From positions 1-64,000 of the forward strand of contig NZ_LFVY01000017.1 of assembly GCF_001050155.1 (NCBI RefSeq): a stretch of 64,000 bases of DNA, written 5' to 3'. Positions within the stretch are counted from its first letter, which is position 1, and each line of letters begins with the position of its first letter. The notes below the pieces were generated by a model. It was not told the DNA's origin. It did no database searches and was given only the letters and a program-made list of their open reading frames with translations. This stretch comes from Nitratireductor soli (GTDB lineage: Bacteria > Pseudomonadota > Alphaproteobacteria > Rhizobiales > Rhizobiaceae). This document shows positions 42,653 through 48,634 of this stretch, one piece after another. The position numbers were made by a program, and so were the translations under genes.

Positions 42653-42723
42653 CCCGAACTGGTATACCACATTGTCGCACCTGCCCCTTGAGATGCCGGC
42701 CGCTTGCCTGCACAAGGGCCGGC

Positions 42724-43629
42724 ATGGAGCTCTGGATTCCCATCACGATCGCCGCCGCCTTCCTGCAGAATCTGCGGTCGGTCGGGCAGAAACACCTGAA
42801 AGGCGTCATGGGCACGACCGGCGCCACCTTCGTGCGCTTCGGCTTCGGCATGCCGTTCGCCATTCTGTTCGTGCTCGGGCTGCATGTCTTCGCCGGTTAT
42901 CCTTTCGCGCCGATCAATGGCGCCTTCCTGGCCTGGACCGTGCTCGGCGGGCTTGGGCAGATCGCCGCGCAATTCCTGCTGATCTATCTGTTCTCGTTCC
43001 GCAACTTCGCTGTCGGCACGGCCTATTCGCGAACGGAGCCGGCGCAAGCCGCCATCTTCGGCCTCATTCTGCTCGGGGAGGTCGCCGGGCCTGGCGCGCT
43101 GATCGCCATCGCCGTGACGGTGGTCGGCGTGATGCTGATCTCGGTCGCCCGCACGCCGATGAGCTGGCGCAACCTGTTCGCCTCGCTGGTCAGCCGCAAC
43201 GCACTGATCGGCCTGGCTTCGGGCACGCTGTTCGGCGTTGCAGCCGTCGCTTATCGCGGCGCTTCCCTTTCGCTCGGCGGGCCGAATTTCCTGATGCAGG
43301 CGGCCACCACGCTGGCGGTCACCATCACCTTCCAGACGGTCATCATGCTCGTCTGGATGCTGTGGAGCGACCGCACGCAGATGGTCCGCATCGCCGCCGC
43401 CTGGAAACCGTCCCTGTTCGTCGGCTTCGTCGGCGCATCGGCTTCGCTCGGCTGGTTCACCGCCATGACCCTGCAGCAGGCGGCGGTGGTGAAGGCGCTG
43501 GCGCAGATCGAGATGATCTTCACCTTCGCCTCCTCCGTGTTCTTCTTCCGCGAACACATCAACCGCACGGAAGTCGCAGGATGCCTGCTGATCGTCGCCG
43601 GCATCCTGCTTCTAGTCCTGATCGGTTAG
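42724..43629 (+). CDS. EamA/DMT-family transporter
   Basis: 301-residue inner membrane protein with ten hydrophobic helices in two EamA repeats (AYSRTEPAQAAIFGLILLGE; QIEMIFTFASSVFFFREHIN). The drug/metabolite transporter superfamily is likely; the substrate is unknown. The start is ATG 42724. Its stop codon TAG is the first three bases of a B repeat. Confidence 0.88.
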   Translation: MELWIPITIAAAFLQNLRSVGQKHLKGVMGTTGATFVRFGFGMPFAILFVLGLHVFAGYPFAPINGAFLAWTVLGGLGQIAAQFLLIYLFSFRNFAVGTAYSRTEPAQAAIFGLILLGEVAGPGALIAIAVTVVGVMLISVARTPMSWRNLFASLVSRNALIGLASGTLFGVAAVAYRGASLSLGGPNFLMQAATTLAVTITFQTVIMLVWMLWSDRTQMVRIAAAWKPSLFVGFVGASASLGWFTAMTLQQAAVVKALAQIEMIFTFASSVFFFREHINRTEVAGCLLIVAGILLLVLIG

Positions 43630-43780: not shown

Positions 43781-44116
43781 TTACTTGACGACGATCCTGA
43801 TCGTGTCCTGATAGCGGTGCGTCTCATCGCCGGCGGCAATGCCCGTGACATTGACGGCGCGGGTGGGCACCCGCGTCCCGCACTGCTTGCTGTTGCGGCT
43901 GGACGGCCCGCCGTCGGAATAACGAACGGTCTTGGCGCGCGGCAGGCGGGCGGCCACGTTGGCGTAGCTCGGGGCCGAAGCACCGCAACTGTCGGCACGA
44001 TAGGCCGTCAGGTGTTTCGTCTGACCGACGCCGAGTTCCACTGTCTTGTCCACACTGGTGCAGCCCGTGGCAAGAAGGGCGGCAAACCCCGTCATCGACA
44101 TCCCAATTCTCTTCAT
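43781..44116 (-). CDS. Small lipoprotein sharing a domain with the neighbouring HTH-membrane proteins
   Basis: 111 residues from ATG 44116, which has a GGATGAGGG ribosome site. A hydrophobic signal is followed by a lipobox-like ATGC (Cys19), so it is probably membrane-anchored in the envelope. The mature domain shows VELGVGQTKHL, Cys44, a Pro, LPRAKTVRYSDGGPSSRNSK, Cys79 and VNVTGIAAGDE. The two non-lipid cysteines, the SDGG...RNSK block and the final strand align with the outside domains of both proteins encoded at 44331-45930. The family is not recognised; an immunoglobulin-like beta sandwich is my guess. Confidence 0.75.
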   Translation of the reverse strand: MKRIGMSMTGFAALLATGCTSVDKTVELGVGQTKHLTAYRADSCGASAPSYANVAARLPRAKTVRYSDGGPSSRNSKQCGTRVPTRAVNVTGIAAGDETHRYQDTIRIVVK

Positions 44117-44242
44117 GTGGCTTCCCTCATCCTTTGGAGAATGGGAGTCCCCGCCGCGCGTTGCCTGCATGACGGAAGCGCTCCCCCGGCGGAATAGACC
44201 GCCCAACCGCGGTTCGCGCCTAATGAAAAATCGGGCCATCTT

Positions 44243-44264
44243 CGGAAAATACGGAAAAATCCGG
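44243..44264. promoter_or_regulatory. Possible operator repeats
   Basis: CGGAAAA occurs twice with a 9-base period (44243 and 44252), and the second copy forms CGGAAAAATCCG, a short palindrome. It stands in the 215-base divergent gap between the lipoprotein and the first HTH-membrane gene. It could be the binding site of their HTH domains; this is not demonstrated. Confidence 0.3.
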
Positions 44265-44330
44265 CCGCAAACCATTCCGATTTCAGGCGAACGCCGATAG
44301 CTTCAAAGACAGCGGTCAAGGGGAAGAGAT

Positions 44331-45161
44331 GTGACGGCGGGAGACTGGAGCAGCCACAAGCACTGGCACATCGTGCTGGACGAACTCTGCAATCGGCGCG
44401 GTCATTACGACAACGCGATCCTGGCGTCCGAACTGTGCCGGCAGTCCGGGCGCGGCAGCAAGGAGGATTTCGAGGCCGCCAAGAAAAAGCTGCGCAACTG
44501 GCGCCAGGGGAAACGGATCCCGCTGCGCCGCAACTTCCAGGTTCTTTCGGAACTGCTGCAGATCGACGCGGACGCGGAGCTGCGGCCGATTTGGGATCGG
44601 CTCTACGCCGTCGCCCATGAGCGGGCCTATCCGCAGCGCGCGCCCGCGCAGGCCGACGCAGGGGCCGCCAACGGCGGAGCCCGCCAGCGCGGATGGCGCG
44701 GTGCGTGCCGATGGGACATCGTGGCCGCCGCGGGCATTTTCACCGGCGGCATCTTCATCGCCGTCGCTGTCTTCGAACACCAACCGGCGAAGCTCGGCCT
44801 GCCCGAGGTGGGCTACAACGCCCAGATGAACATGATCGTCGGCGAAACCAAGCTCATTCACGGCGAATACGATCGCTGCGACGCGCCGCCGCCGAACTGG
44901 GAGGCGGTGCTGCCGCGCATCCCCAATACGGATCTGGGCGTGTTCGGCGATGGCGGGCTGGCGGCCAAGATGGTCAATGACTGCGGCCGGGAGATGGTCG
45001 TGCGCGCCGTCCGGTTCACCGCGGTGAAGCCCGGCATAGAGGAAGTCGTCCTGCTCGGCGACTTCATGCGCCTGGTGGTGACGTCCGCCCAGGAGCTGCG
45101 CTCCGTGAATTCAACGCCTGCAATGGAGAGAGGGAAGGTCGATGGACCAAAGGTTCGATGA
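44331..45161 (+). CDS. HTH-like / single-membrane-helix / extracytoplasmic-domain protein, paralogue 1
   Basis: 276 residues starting at GTG 44331 behind AAGGGGAAGAG. Residues about 10-95 look like an all-helical XRE-like DNA-binding domain with an insertion: LASELC, then KLRNWRQGKRIPLRRNFQVL, where WRxGxxxP mimics the end of Cro/CI-type helix-turn-helix domains. A variable linker rich in Ala/Arg precedes one membrane helix (about 130-148). Residues about 160-252 form the outside domain: VGETKLIHGEYDRC, GVFGDGGL, DCG, VRFTAVKPGIEE. The basic residues before the helix place the N-terminus in the cytosol. It overlaps the next gene by 20 bases. Possibly a membrane-bound one-component regulator. 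Confidence 0.8.
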   Translation: MTAGDWSSHKHWHIVLDELCNRRGHYDNAILASELCRQSGRGSKEDFEAAKKKLRNWRQGKRIPLRRNFQVLSELLQIDADAELRPIWDRLYAVAHERAYPQRAPAQADAGAANGGARQRGWRGACRWDIVAAAGIFTGGIFIAVAVFEHQPAKLGLPEVGYNAQMNMIVGETKLIHGEYDRCDAPPPNWEAVLPRIPNTDLGVFGDGGLAAKMVNDCGREMVVRAVRFTAVKPGIEEVVLLGDFMRLVVTSAQELRSVNSTPAMERGKVDGPKVR

Positions 45162-45930
45162 GATCGATCGATGGCACGAGCTCTTCGACGAGCTGTGCAT
45201 ACGCGCCGGCTATTCGGACACGGCGTCGCTGGCCGGAAAATTCTGCGCCATGACCAATGGCGGCGGCCAGAACCAGTACGAGACGGCGTTGAGAAACCTC
45301 AACAACTGGCGTTCGGGCCGGCACATTCCCAGGCAGCGCAGCATGCGCGTGCTGTGTGAGCTGCTTGGCGTGCCGGGGGACCCGGAGCTGCTGGCGCGCT
45401 GGAACCTGCTGTACCAGCGCGCGCGCCAAGTGGAGGAGGAAGCGCCGGAGGAAAGCCCCGCTCCGTCGCCGGCTGAAAATGCCACGGGCGCGGGCAAGCG
45501 AAGCCGTCATCCGGGCAGCCTGTCGACCCTCCAGGCGATGTTTGCCGGCGCCTTCCTCTTCCTGGTCGGCATGGGCGCCGGCGTGCTCGTCGCATCGGAC
45601 TGGCGCCCGTGGGGCGGGCCCGCCGACGACGCGCCGATGATCCGATACGACCCGGAACTCAGGATGACGGTCGGCGAGAGCCGCGTCATTCATGGCGAGC
45701 GCGGCGATTGCGGCAAGCTGCCGCGCGAATGGGACGACCTGCAGAACAGCCTGCCCGCGTCGGCGCTCGGCACCTTCTCCGATGGCGGGCTGGTGCGACG
45801 CAACTCGAAATACTGCAAGGGCGTCACACCGGCCCGCGGCATCCGCTTTACCGCCACCAAGCCGGGGACGGAGCTGATGCATATCACCGGAGACCTCATC
45901 AAGATGACAGTGGTGGAGAAGCCTCAGTAG
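45142..45930 (+). CDS. HTH-like / single-membrane-helix / extracytoplasmic-domain protein, paralogue 2
   Basis: 262 residues, clearly homologous along its length to the preceding protein. Cytosolic helical domain about residues 8-95 (LAGKFC, LRNLNNWRSGRHIPRQRSMR, VLCELLG). An acidic Pro/Glu/Ala linker, then KRSRH, precedes one membrane helix about 131-152. The outside domain about 168-258 has TVGESRVIHGERGDC, LGTFSDGGLVRRNSKYC and RFTATKPGTE. The FSDGG..RRNSK..C block is closest to the lipoprotein encoded at 43781-44116. The ATG 45142 has GGAGAGAGGGAAGG upstream. A tandem duplication is likely. Confidence 0.8.
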   Translation: MDQRFDEIDRWHELFDELCIRAGYSDTASLAGKFCAMTNGGGQNQYETALRNLNNWRSGRHIPRQRSMRVLCELLGVPGDPELLARWNLLYQRARQVEEEAPEESPAPSPAENATGAGKRSRHPGSLSTLQAMFAGAFLFLVGMGAGVLVASDWRPWGGPADDAPMIRYDPELRMTVGESRVIHGERGDCGKLPREWDDLQNSLPASALGTFSDGGLVRRNSKYCKGVTPARGIRFTATKPGTELMHITGDLIKMTVVEKPQ

Positions 45931-47871: not shown

Positions 47872-48222
47872 TCAAGAGGCCGATTTGTACGGCGCGGCGA
47901 ACGCCTCCCGCGCCGGCTCGGCAGGCGTGACGCCCTCTTCGAGCGGCATGGCGGACAGCTCGATGGTCCGATTGCAGGCAGCGGCAAAGACGAAGGCGAA
48001 ATCGACCGATGGCGTATGATCGATCAGCCCGCTTTCAACCTGCGAGATACGCGCCTGGCTGACGCCGATGCGTCCGGCAACGTCAGCCTGCGTCAGCCCG
48101 GCTTCCTTGCGCATCCCGGCGAGAAGGCTGGATATCTTTCGCGCTGCCTTGGCGCGCGCGCGCGCCAGACGAAGCGCGGGATCGCGCTCGATCAGCTCCA
48201 GTTCCTGGTCAAATCCCATCAT
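47872..48222 (-). CDS. XRE-family regulator, putative antitoxin
   Basis: 116 residues from ATG 48222. A charged N-terminal helix is followed by a Cro/CI helix-turn-helix (LTQADVAGRIGVSQARISQV, then ESG) near residues 48-70 and a C-terminal tail rich in Ala/Pro/Glu. It overlaps the upstream gene by 14 bases. The order unknown-then-XRE resembles HigBA-type toxin-antitoxin units. Confidence 0.82.
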   Translation of the reverse strand: MMGFDQELELIERDPALRLARARAKAARKISSLLAGMRKEAGLTQADVAGRIGVSQARISQVESGLIDHTPSVDFAFVFAAACNRTIELSAMPLEEGVTPAEPAREAFAAPYKSAS

Positions 48223-48595
48223 CCCACCTTTCCGCTTGCCCGCGCCGCACCCGGTCGCGGGCTTTGTCGAGGAAGGCATCGCGGTCCTGCAATGTCCATA
48301 TCCTGCTGTCGAAGGTTTCCGACAGGGCGAGCGACACATCGTGGGTTTGCGCCCGTCCATCGCCGGGCACGGTCGCCGCCATGCGGAACTTCACATCGCG
48401 GAACAGAAACACGCCTCCCGCTGTCGCATGCCAGGCGCCGCCAGGCAAAAAACCCGCGTCCCTGATCCGCAACAGCTCGAAGAAGCCGTTGACGATGCCA
48501 GCGCTCTTGTCAGGGTCGCCCGTGTAGGCAGCGCGCAGGGCCGACAGTTCCTGGCCAGCATCGAAATCATCTCCGCGATAGACCCAGACAGCCAT
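48209..48595 (-). CDS. Unrecognised protein, candidate toxin upstream of an XRE gene
   Basis: 128 residues from ATG 48595. Soluble, mixed alpha/beta, with MAVWVYRGDDFDAGQELSAL at the start, GVFLFRDVKFRMAATV in the middle and a basic C-terminal helix (DKARDRVRRGQAERW). No signature of RelE, HigB or HipA is certain. The operon layout with the XRE gene (14-base overlap) and an AT-rich palindromic promoter region suggest a toxin-antitoxin or similar two-part system. Function is inferred from context only. Confidence 0.65.
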   Translation of the reverse strand: MAVWVYRGDDFDAGQELSALRAAYTGDPDKSAGIVNGFFELLRIRDAGFLPGGAWHATAGGVFLFRDVKFRMAATVPGDGRAQTHDVSLALSETFDSRIWTLQDRDAFLDKARDRVRRGQAERWDDGI

Positions 48596-48605
48596 ACCGG
48601 CCCCC

Positions 48606-48634
48606 AATATAATCTATACCTTATAAAACGTCCA
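48606..48634 (-). promoter_or_regulatory. AT-rich promoter/operator of the XRE unit
   Basis: On the minus strand TGGACG, 17 bases, TATATT, with an imperfect palindrome TATAAGGTATAGATTATA overlapping the -10 region. This is strikingly AT-rich for this genome. The leader to ATG 48595 would be very short. A probable binding site for the XRE protein. Confidence 0.5.

Follow-up and report, generated by a model that had tools for sequence, protein, structure and literature searches.

Transmembrane transcription regulators (TTRs) are single-pass membrane proteins with a helix-turn-helix (HTH) type domain inside the cell and a sensor domain outside it (PMC10269533). Here, we describe two candidate proteins of this kind, referred to as R1 and R2, which are encoded in tandem next to a divergent lipoprotein gene at positions 43781-45930 of a 64,000-nucleotide stretch of Nitratireductor soli DNA (contig NZ_LFVY01000017.1, positions 1 to 64,000; hereafter the window). 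R1, R2 and the lipoprotein share an outside domain of about 95 residues. Conserved direct repeats are found upstream of the regulators, and a gene for a small exported protein recurs as their divergent neighbour. R1 and R2 may be membrane-anchored one-component regulators of their own operon and of the divergent envelope gene, a reading for and against which we see the chances as about equal. In contrast to described TTRs, the outside domain of R1 and R2 carries no family name, their N-terminus stays below Pfam cut-offs, and they form a tandem pair beside a lipoprotein that has the same outside domain.

Vibrio ToxR (PMC7496328) likewise has a membrane anchor and an adjacent partner gene, and it demonstrates that this plan is workable with direct-repeat operators and a pair of cysteines in the periplasmic domain. 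The direct-repeat likeness is one by sequence only, and repeat unit and spacing differ. Further, ToxR has an OmpR-type DNA-binding domain, whereas the N-terminus of R2 is modelled as an all-helical, five-helix, XRE-like domain, and neither R1 nor R2 belongs to any Pfam family at E≤10. RodZ has an HTH of the XRE type, a single membrane helix and a beta domain in the periplasm (PMC6946637). It serves, however, as a cell-shape protein, its HTH is not DNA-binding, it is not known to have a lipoprotein twin, and R1 and R2 have no RodZ match in Pfam. BlaR1 is similar in design: the outside sensor of this membrane regulator has structural homologues in a family of exported proteins, the beta-lactamases, with which it thus has its fold in common, and, in contrast to R1 and R2, its ligand is known (PMC5957439). 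In Sinorhizobium, the lipoproteins LppA and JspA adjust an envelope signalling path, ExoR-ExoS-ChvI (PMC10659215). They are different proteins acting on a two-component system, and the part of that paper available to us describes no shared sensor domain.

A search of the open PubMed Central literature for one-component regulators of the membrane-bound XRE type, accompanied by lipoproteins or bearing periplasmic domains, returned no paper on the R1/R2 system. ToxS is not known to be a copy of the ToxR sensor domain, and BlaR1 signals through a protease domain. New in comparison with described TTRs are the outside domain, the family to which the N-terminus belongs, the arrangement of two tandem regulators beside a lipoprotein of the same domain, and the way in which divergent partners are exchanged.

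A two-cysteine domain shared by three neighbouring proteins

A sequence-only reading of the window, made from its letters and open reading frames (ORFs), had claimed two overlapping regulator genes and a divergent lipoprotein gene, and these were found at the coordinates given below.

43781..44116, minus strand: lipoprotein gene, 111 amino acids, lipobox LLATGC with Cys19; the mature part is the shared domain
43784..44056, minus strand: two-cysteine domain of the lipoprotein (Cys44, Cys79), from domain alignment and model
44225..44266, plus strand: conserved direct-repeat block, presumed operator, GAAAAATC then CGGAAAATACGGAAAAATC
44243-44257, plus strand: exact CGGAAA-N3-CGGAAA pair, inside the block 44225..44266
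44331..45161, plus strand: R1, putative membrane regulator, 276 amino acids, GTG start
44355..44624, plus strand: R1 helical N-terminal domain, presumed DNA-binding
44718..44774, plus strand: R1 membrane helix, about residues 130-148, from hydrophobicity judged by eye and homology with R2
44802..45083, plus strand: two-cysteine domain of R1, from alignment and profile tests
45142..45930, plus strand: R2, putative membrane regulator, 262 amino acids, overlapping R1 by 20 bases
45163..45432, plus strand: R2 helical N-terminal domain, XRE-like by weak matches, from model and weak matches
45523..45594, plus strand: R2 membrane helix, model helix 128-151, with a low predicted local distance difference test score (pLDDT) in its second half
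45634..45921, plus strand: two-cysteine domain of R2 (Cys190, Cys225), from alignment and model

The lipoprotein gene starts with the ATG at 44116, the ORF reaching 44275 being a mechanical extension, and the divergent gap between it and R1 measures 214 bases. R1 and R2 are 33-35% identical to each other. With start codons chosen by the analyst, all 11 pairs have the R2 start between -20 and +30 bases relative to the R1 stop. The Nitratireductor pacificus copy of R2 shares 85% identity with the window protein, and ratios of nonsynonymous to synonymous substitution (dN/dS) against that species are 0.28 for R1, 0.15 for R2 and 0.17 for the lipoprotein. A home-made lipobox test, which looks for a hydrophobic N-terminal stretch and a lipobox cysteine, was positive for all eight lipoproteins found in complete trios of R1, R2 and lipoprotein. 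The region contains no RNA element at Rfam gathering scores, and a consensus scan identified no sigma-70 promoters or terminators.

Searching the N. soli genome with R2 returned R1 at E=6.3e-42 and the lipoprotein at E=1.2e-4 and 30% identity, while two further matches (E 0.15 and 0.30) are not significant. A regulator-only profile built from 27 domains (11 R1, 11 R2 and 5 single regulators, no lipoproteins) matched all eight lipoproteins, the window copy at E=1.1e-16, and a lipoprotein-only profile of eight sequences matched 11 of 11 R1 and 11 of 11 R2. Neither of these two profiles matched any of 6,347 background ORFs and 800 shuffled sequences used as decoys; for a third profile, built from solo exported domains, the best decoy had an E of 0.048. 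Because the held-out regulator and lipoprotein profiles match the other groups without matching decoys, chance is excluded as the source of the likeness between the three domains, and the proposed homology of the outside domains of R1, R2 and lipoprotein is upheld. Likewise, the suggestion that this domain is undescribed agrees with the database searches: no Pfam family scored above cut-off for the three proteins or for 37 aligned domains, R1 and R2 had no Pfam match of any kind at E≤10, and neither NCBIfam nor PHROGs gave a match for R1, R2 or the lipoprotein. A match of the lipoprotein to Pfam SpdB (E 0.0022, 18.7 bits against a cut-off of 25, one of the 37 domains) was rejected as chance.

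Both cysteines of the domain are invariant in 37 of 37 aligned domains. The pair might thus be a sensor of periplasmic redox or disulfide stress, as in ToxR, where two periplasmic cysteines and direct-repeat operators go together with redox-dependent activity (PMC7496328). However, the lipoproteins and the solo exported proteins keep the same cysteines without exception, so that a plain structural disulfide explains their conservation equally well, and we regard a redox sensor as quite unlikely.

Structure models of R2 (mean pLDDT 81.9) and the lipoprotein (77.0) bear out the common layout that had been proposed for the outside domains. The R2 model shows outside strands at residues 172-176, 180-187, 210-222, 227-238, 242-248 and 251-258 with a helix at 197-203, and the lipoprotein model shows strands at 24-28, 33-40, 64-76, 81-92, 96-102 and 104-110 with a helix at 51-55. 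The order of elements is identical and the cysteines are located in the same two loops, a comparison made by element order. The N-terminal part of the R2 model consists of helices at 11-21, 27-37, 43-58, 65-74 and 81-100, and the membrane helix (128-151, low confidence at residues 143-152) lies between the two folded domains. The earlier outline of the regulators as helical N-terminus, one membrane helix and outside domain is therefore matched by the R2 model, with good confidence except in the linkers.

The best Foldseek match of the lipoprotein model was amebosin (6cjz, E 0.07, probability 0.92, template modelling (TM) score 0.41), followed by the parasite inhibitor PbICP-C (3pnr, E 0.28, probability 0.28). 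These weak matches may point to a chagasin-type peptidase-inhibitor fold, in which case the module might sense or inhibit an envelope protease. Chagasin and amoebiasin have immunoglobulin (Ig)-like folds, and such likeness can be independent (PMC3901451). Comparison with five alphaproteobacterial I42 domains using hhalign resulted in a probability of 0.8%, and Pfam yielded no I42 match (PF09394) in the 37 domains or in the N. soli genome. Membership in Inhibitor I42 was dropped on these two results, both at the level of sequence. The inhibitor motifs characteristic of I42 were not seen, and a protease-directed role of this type is very unlikely in our view.

Conserved direct repeats and divergent partner genes

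Repeat counts are based on 22 regulator loci, excluding locus L009, which has broken reading frames, and a Rhizobium sp. WL3 plasmid. The 200 bases before these 22 regulators contain 44 copies of CGGAAA where 7.3 are expected from dinucleotide shuffles, and 40 of the 44 lie on the strand of the regulator. At least two copies are present upstream of 14 of the 22 regulators compared with 9 of 371 other genes in the same stretches, and at least one copy is present in 19 of 22 compared with 87 of 371. A degenerate CGGAAA-N3-CGGAAA-like pair with a 9-base period can be found at -87 to -96 in 10 loci, made up of the eight trios plus L064 and L065; three more have it at -104 to -107, giving 13 of 22 in total. 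The exact pair is present in six. Since the repeat block persists both in L065, where a divergent gene is absent, and in L064, where the divergent gene is of an unrelated kind, it goes with the regulator. The sequence-only reading had singled out repeats at 44243-44264: their position is indeed conserved across loci, and they proved to be part of a larger conserved block at about 44225-44266. The sole other exact pair in the genome is located in the same window, at 1576-1590 on the minus strand.

Partner genes were assessed in 24 regulator loci, namely the 22 above together with L009 and the WL3 plasmid; G485, with an N-terminal domain only, was excluded. In 19 of the 24, the gene divergent from the regulator encodes a small exported protein; among all predicted genes of the context loci, partners included, 77 of 645 (12%) encode exported proteins. 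The divergent partner carries the regulator's own domain in nine loci, as a lipoprotein in eight and as a secreted protein in one (L076), the latter from another order-level lineage. The other 10 of the 19 are unrelated to the domain and fall into several families. L064, L066 and L008 have a secreted family whose Ig match stays under the cut-off, L067 has a PEBP-family protein (Pfam 2e-10), L068 a lipoprotein without a family name, and L069 and L070 share a secreted family that is likewise unnamed. The partners in L072, L073 and L075 include DUF995-like proteins (above cut-off in L075, just below it in L072 and by eye in L073). In L066 and L074, a short low-scoring ORF is also present in the gap. 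DUF995-like small exported proteins recur beside regulators in differing lineages (L072, L073, L075 and L109). Counted as the sequence-only reading had suggested, the regulator architecture has a same-domain partner in 9 of 24 loci, in eight of them the lipoprotein, and an unrelated exported partner in 10 of 24. The same-domain lipoprotein thus represents one variant within a broader design, in which exported proteins of unrelated kinds frequently occupy the divergent position.

A tree was calculated from 55 domains and 95 columns, too few columns for many of the forks. R1 domains form one clade (support 100/100), R2 domains another (94/91), and both group together with one single regulator (99/98). 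The lipoproteins form a clade of their own (99/96) outside the R1+R2 group, next to one lone exported protein (91/94, not starred). These groupings indicate that the regulators duplicated once and that the lipoprotein did not split off from R1 or R2. On the tree the lipoprotein appears as an old paralogue and not as a recent copy of either, and the idea that it is a copy of its own regulators' sensor, put forward in the sequence-only reading, is not supported, since the two clades stand apart.

The age and separateness of the lipoprotein clade also speak against a role of the lipoprotein as direct antagonist or co-receptor, in which it would pair with the outside domains of R1 and R2 via the shared fold and silence or activate them. 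Such pairing would fit the shared fold and the conserved neighbourhood, it has a parallel in a class-distant genome with the same combination of regulator and secreted domain, and rhizobial lipoproteins are able to modulate envelope signalling, as LppA and JspA do (PMC10659215). However, 10 of the 19 divergent exported neighbours lack the domain, and the probable location of the lipoprotein argues in the same direction. In E. coli, the residue following the lipidated cysteine determines lipoprotein sorting. This residue is Thr, not Asp, in the window lipoprotein, and the domain begins about five residues past the lipidated cysteine, leaving a short tether. Based on the E. coli rule and the short tether, the lipoprotein would sit in the outer membrane, far from R1 and R2, making a shared soluble ligand likelier than direct contact with either of them. 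We consider direct pairing improbable.

Proposed membrane-anchored regulation weighed against a scaffold

Under our hypothesis, R1 and R2 would each carry an XRE-like DNA-binding domain on the cytoplasmic side, cross the membrane with a single helix and expose a small beta domain of the disulfide type, with two invariant cysteines, in the periplasm, the tandem pair probably having arisen from one duplication. They would bind the direct repeats in the 214-base gap and thereby regulate both their own operon and the gene divergent from it. That divergent gene would be the output, a small exported envelope protein, which in the window is a lipoprotein with the outside fold of the sensor. We find it most likely that sensor and output have a common fold because both would meet one periplasmic partner or condition, and the lipoprotein may act as effector or in feedback.

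The proposal of an XRE-like N-terminus stands in part: five helices and weak XRE repressor matches are in its favor, but no match was obtained at E≤0.001 or above a Pfam cut-off. The weak structural leads are the XRE repressors DdrO and C.Csp231I as identified by Foldseek, with DdrO matches at probabilities of 0.69 (6jq1) and 0.44 and a TM score of 0.64 over 67 columns for 6rnz. The sequence profile of the N-terminus gave HigA-2 at E 0.07, which is also weak. Given that a DNA-binding fold of R1 and R2 rests on weak matches, both proteins might instead be RodZ-like scaffolds whose XRE-like domain binds proteins and which organise an envelope complex with the lipoprotein, the repeats then serving another regulator. 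RodZ is the main warning here because it combines the same layout with an XRE-type domain that has no interaction with DNA (PMC6946637). However, R1 and R2 have no Pfam match at all and thus none to RodZ domains either, and the repeat block stays in position upstream of the regulator in loci that lack the divergent gene or have an unrelated one, as self-regulation predicts. Further, W49, G52 and P56 are invariant and R50 and R59 near-invariant around the presumed recognition helix. We regard a scaffold as unlikely.

Besides the RodZ precedent, a number of findings weigh against membrane-anchored regulation by R1 and R2 as outlined above. The 9-base-period pair is missing in nine of the 22 loci. 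The exact pair is not unique to the locus, with two matches in the N. soli genome against one for the control, and across ten genomes it has 46 matches against 16 control matches, with six of the 46 at the presumed operator described here. It is thus no clean regulon marker genome-wide, and the excess of 46 over 16 makes an excess elsewhere in the genomes possible. Foldseek searches with the R2 and lipoprotein models found nothing at E≤0.001, and Pfam HTH families matched one of 31 N-termini, below cut-off (HTH_31, E 0.056). With regard to partner genes, five of the 24 loci depart from the plain design. L065 and L071 have no divergent neighbour, L071 having a convergent downstream lipoprotein that resembles the one in L068. 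The WL3 plasmid has no divergent exported gene and carries a convergent group with a DUF995 lipoprotein, the lipoprotein in L074 lies at a distance of about 590 bases, and in L009 the regulator frames are broken, with only a homologous ORF as partner. Eight of the 19 loci with exported partners represent a single vertically inherited trio, and because the eight trios are one arrangement, the number of independent partner cases is below 19. G485 (L099:1378-1869), a 164-residue frame, matches the N-terminal regulator domain at E 1e-36, and no outside domain was found nearby. Lastly, the gene caller and the signal-peptide test were both home-made. In L009, from Brucella oryzae, the R1 frame is split into three ORFs and the R2 frame into two (L009:5075-6818), the result of either a broken copy or assembly errors.

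Distribution and biological meaning

R2 searches of 297 genomes of the family yielded matches in 20 at E≤0.001, 15 with regulators and five with a lone exported domain. The complete trio is conserved in eight of the 297, and its occurrence within the genus is all-or-none, with all three genes in three of ten genomes and none in the other seven. The order, class and phylum levels were covered with a domain profile. It identified 10 further genomes among 397 of the order (four regulators and six lone domains), four among 385 of the class (one regulator, one regulator with an exported domain and two lone domains) and one weak match among 299 of the phylum. G1183 (E 2.4e-4, a 53-residue frame with a stop) was counted neither as a regulator nor as a solo domain, and L016 was left out of two analyses because it nearly duplicates L014. 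The shared domain also occurs in 13 lone exported proteins (L077-L089) whose genes are located in unrelated neighbourhoods, and no regulators were found near them in the stretches examined, some of them on short contigs. Using tblastn, R2 matched two of 72,556 plasmid records, both from Alphaproteobacteria. A phage origin was rejected, as R2 remained unmatched among 50,697 phage records in the same type of search. A pattern scan of 84,980 species genomes, which reaches close relatives only, returned four loci.

A conserved wider operon was also rejected: shared flanks represent vertical synteny, and the solo exported domains are found in unrelated places. Next to the lipoprotein gene, both the window (42688-43629) and five other trio loci (L057-L060 and L062) carry an EamA transporter gene, and the gene on the other side in L058-L060 and L062 is one that we take to be argB-like. 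At 47872-48607, the window contains an HTH_3 gene (Pfam 7e-11) beside a small ORF, a probable toxin-antitoxin pair in which the small ORF presumably resembles HigB/Gp49-type toxins.

A wider picture, possible though rather doubtful, is that of a regulator family with a movable sensor domain and a fixed direct-repeat switch, in which the divergent envelope gene is exchanged in the course of evolution. The exchanged partners would be the own-domain lipoprotein, the secreted own domain and PEBP-like, DUF995-like, Ig-like and unnamed proteins. In the lineage of the window, the sensor fold would have become the output, with sensor and effector reading the same periplasmic ligand. An exchange of partners while the switch stays fixed would illustrate the rewiring of envelope regulators. 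One-component regulators anchored in the membrane occur widely, and for few of them is the signal known. The locus represents a compact conserved unit in a non-model environmental bacterium, with an unnamed sensor domain, a candidate operator and a putative output gene contained within about 2.2 kilobases. If the lipoprotein shares the ligand of the sensor, purification of the lipoprotein would be a direct route to that ligand.

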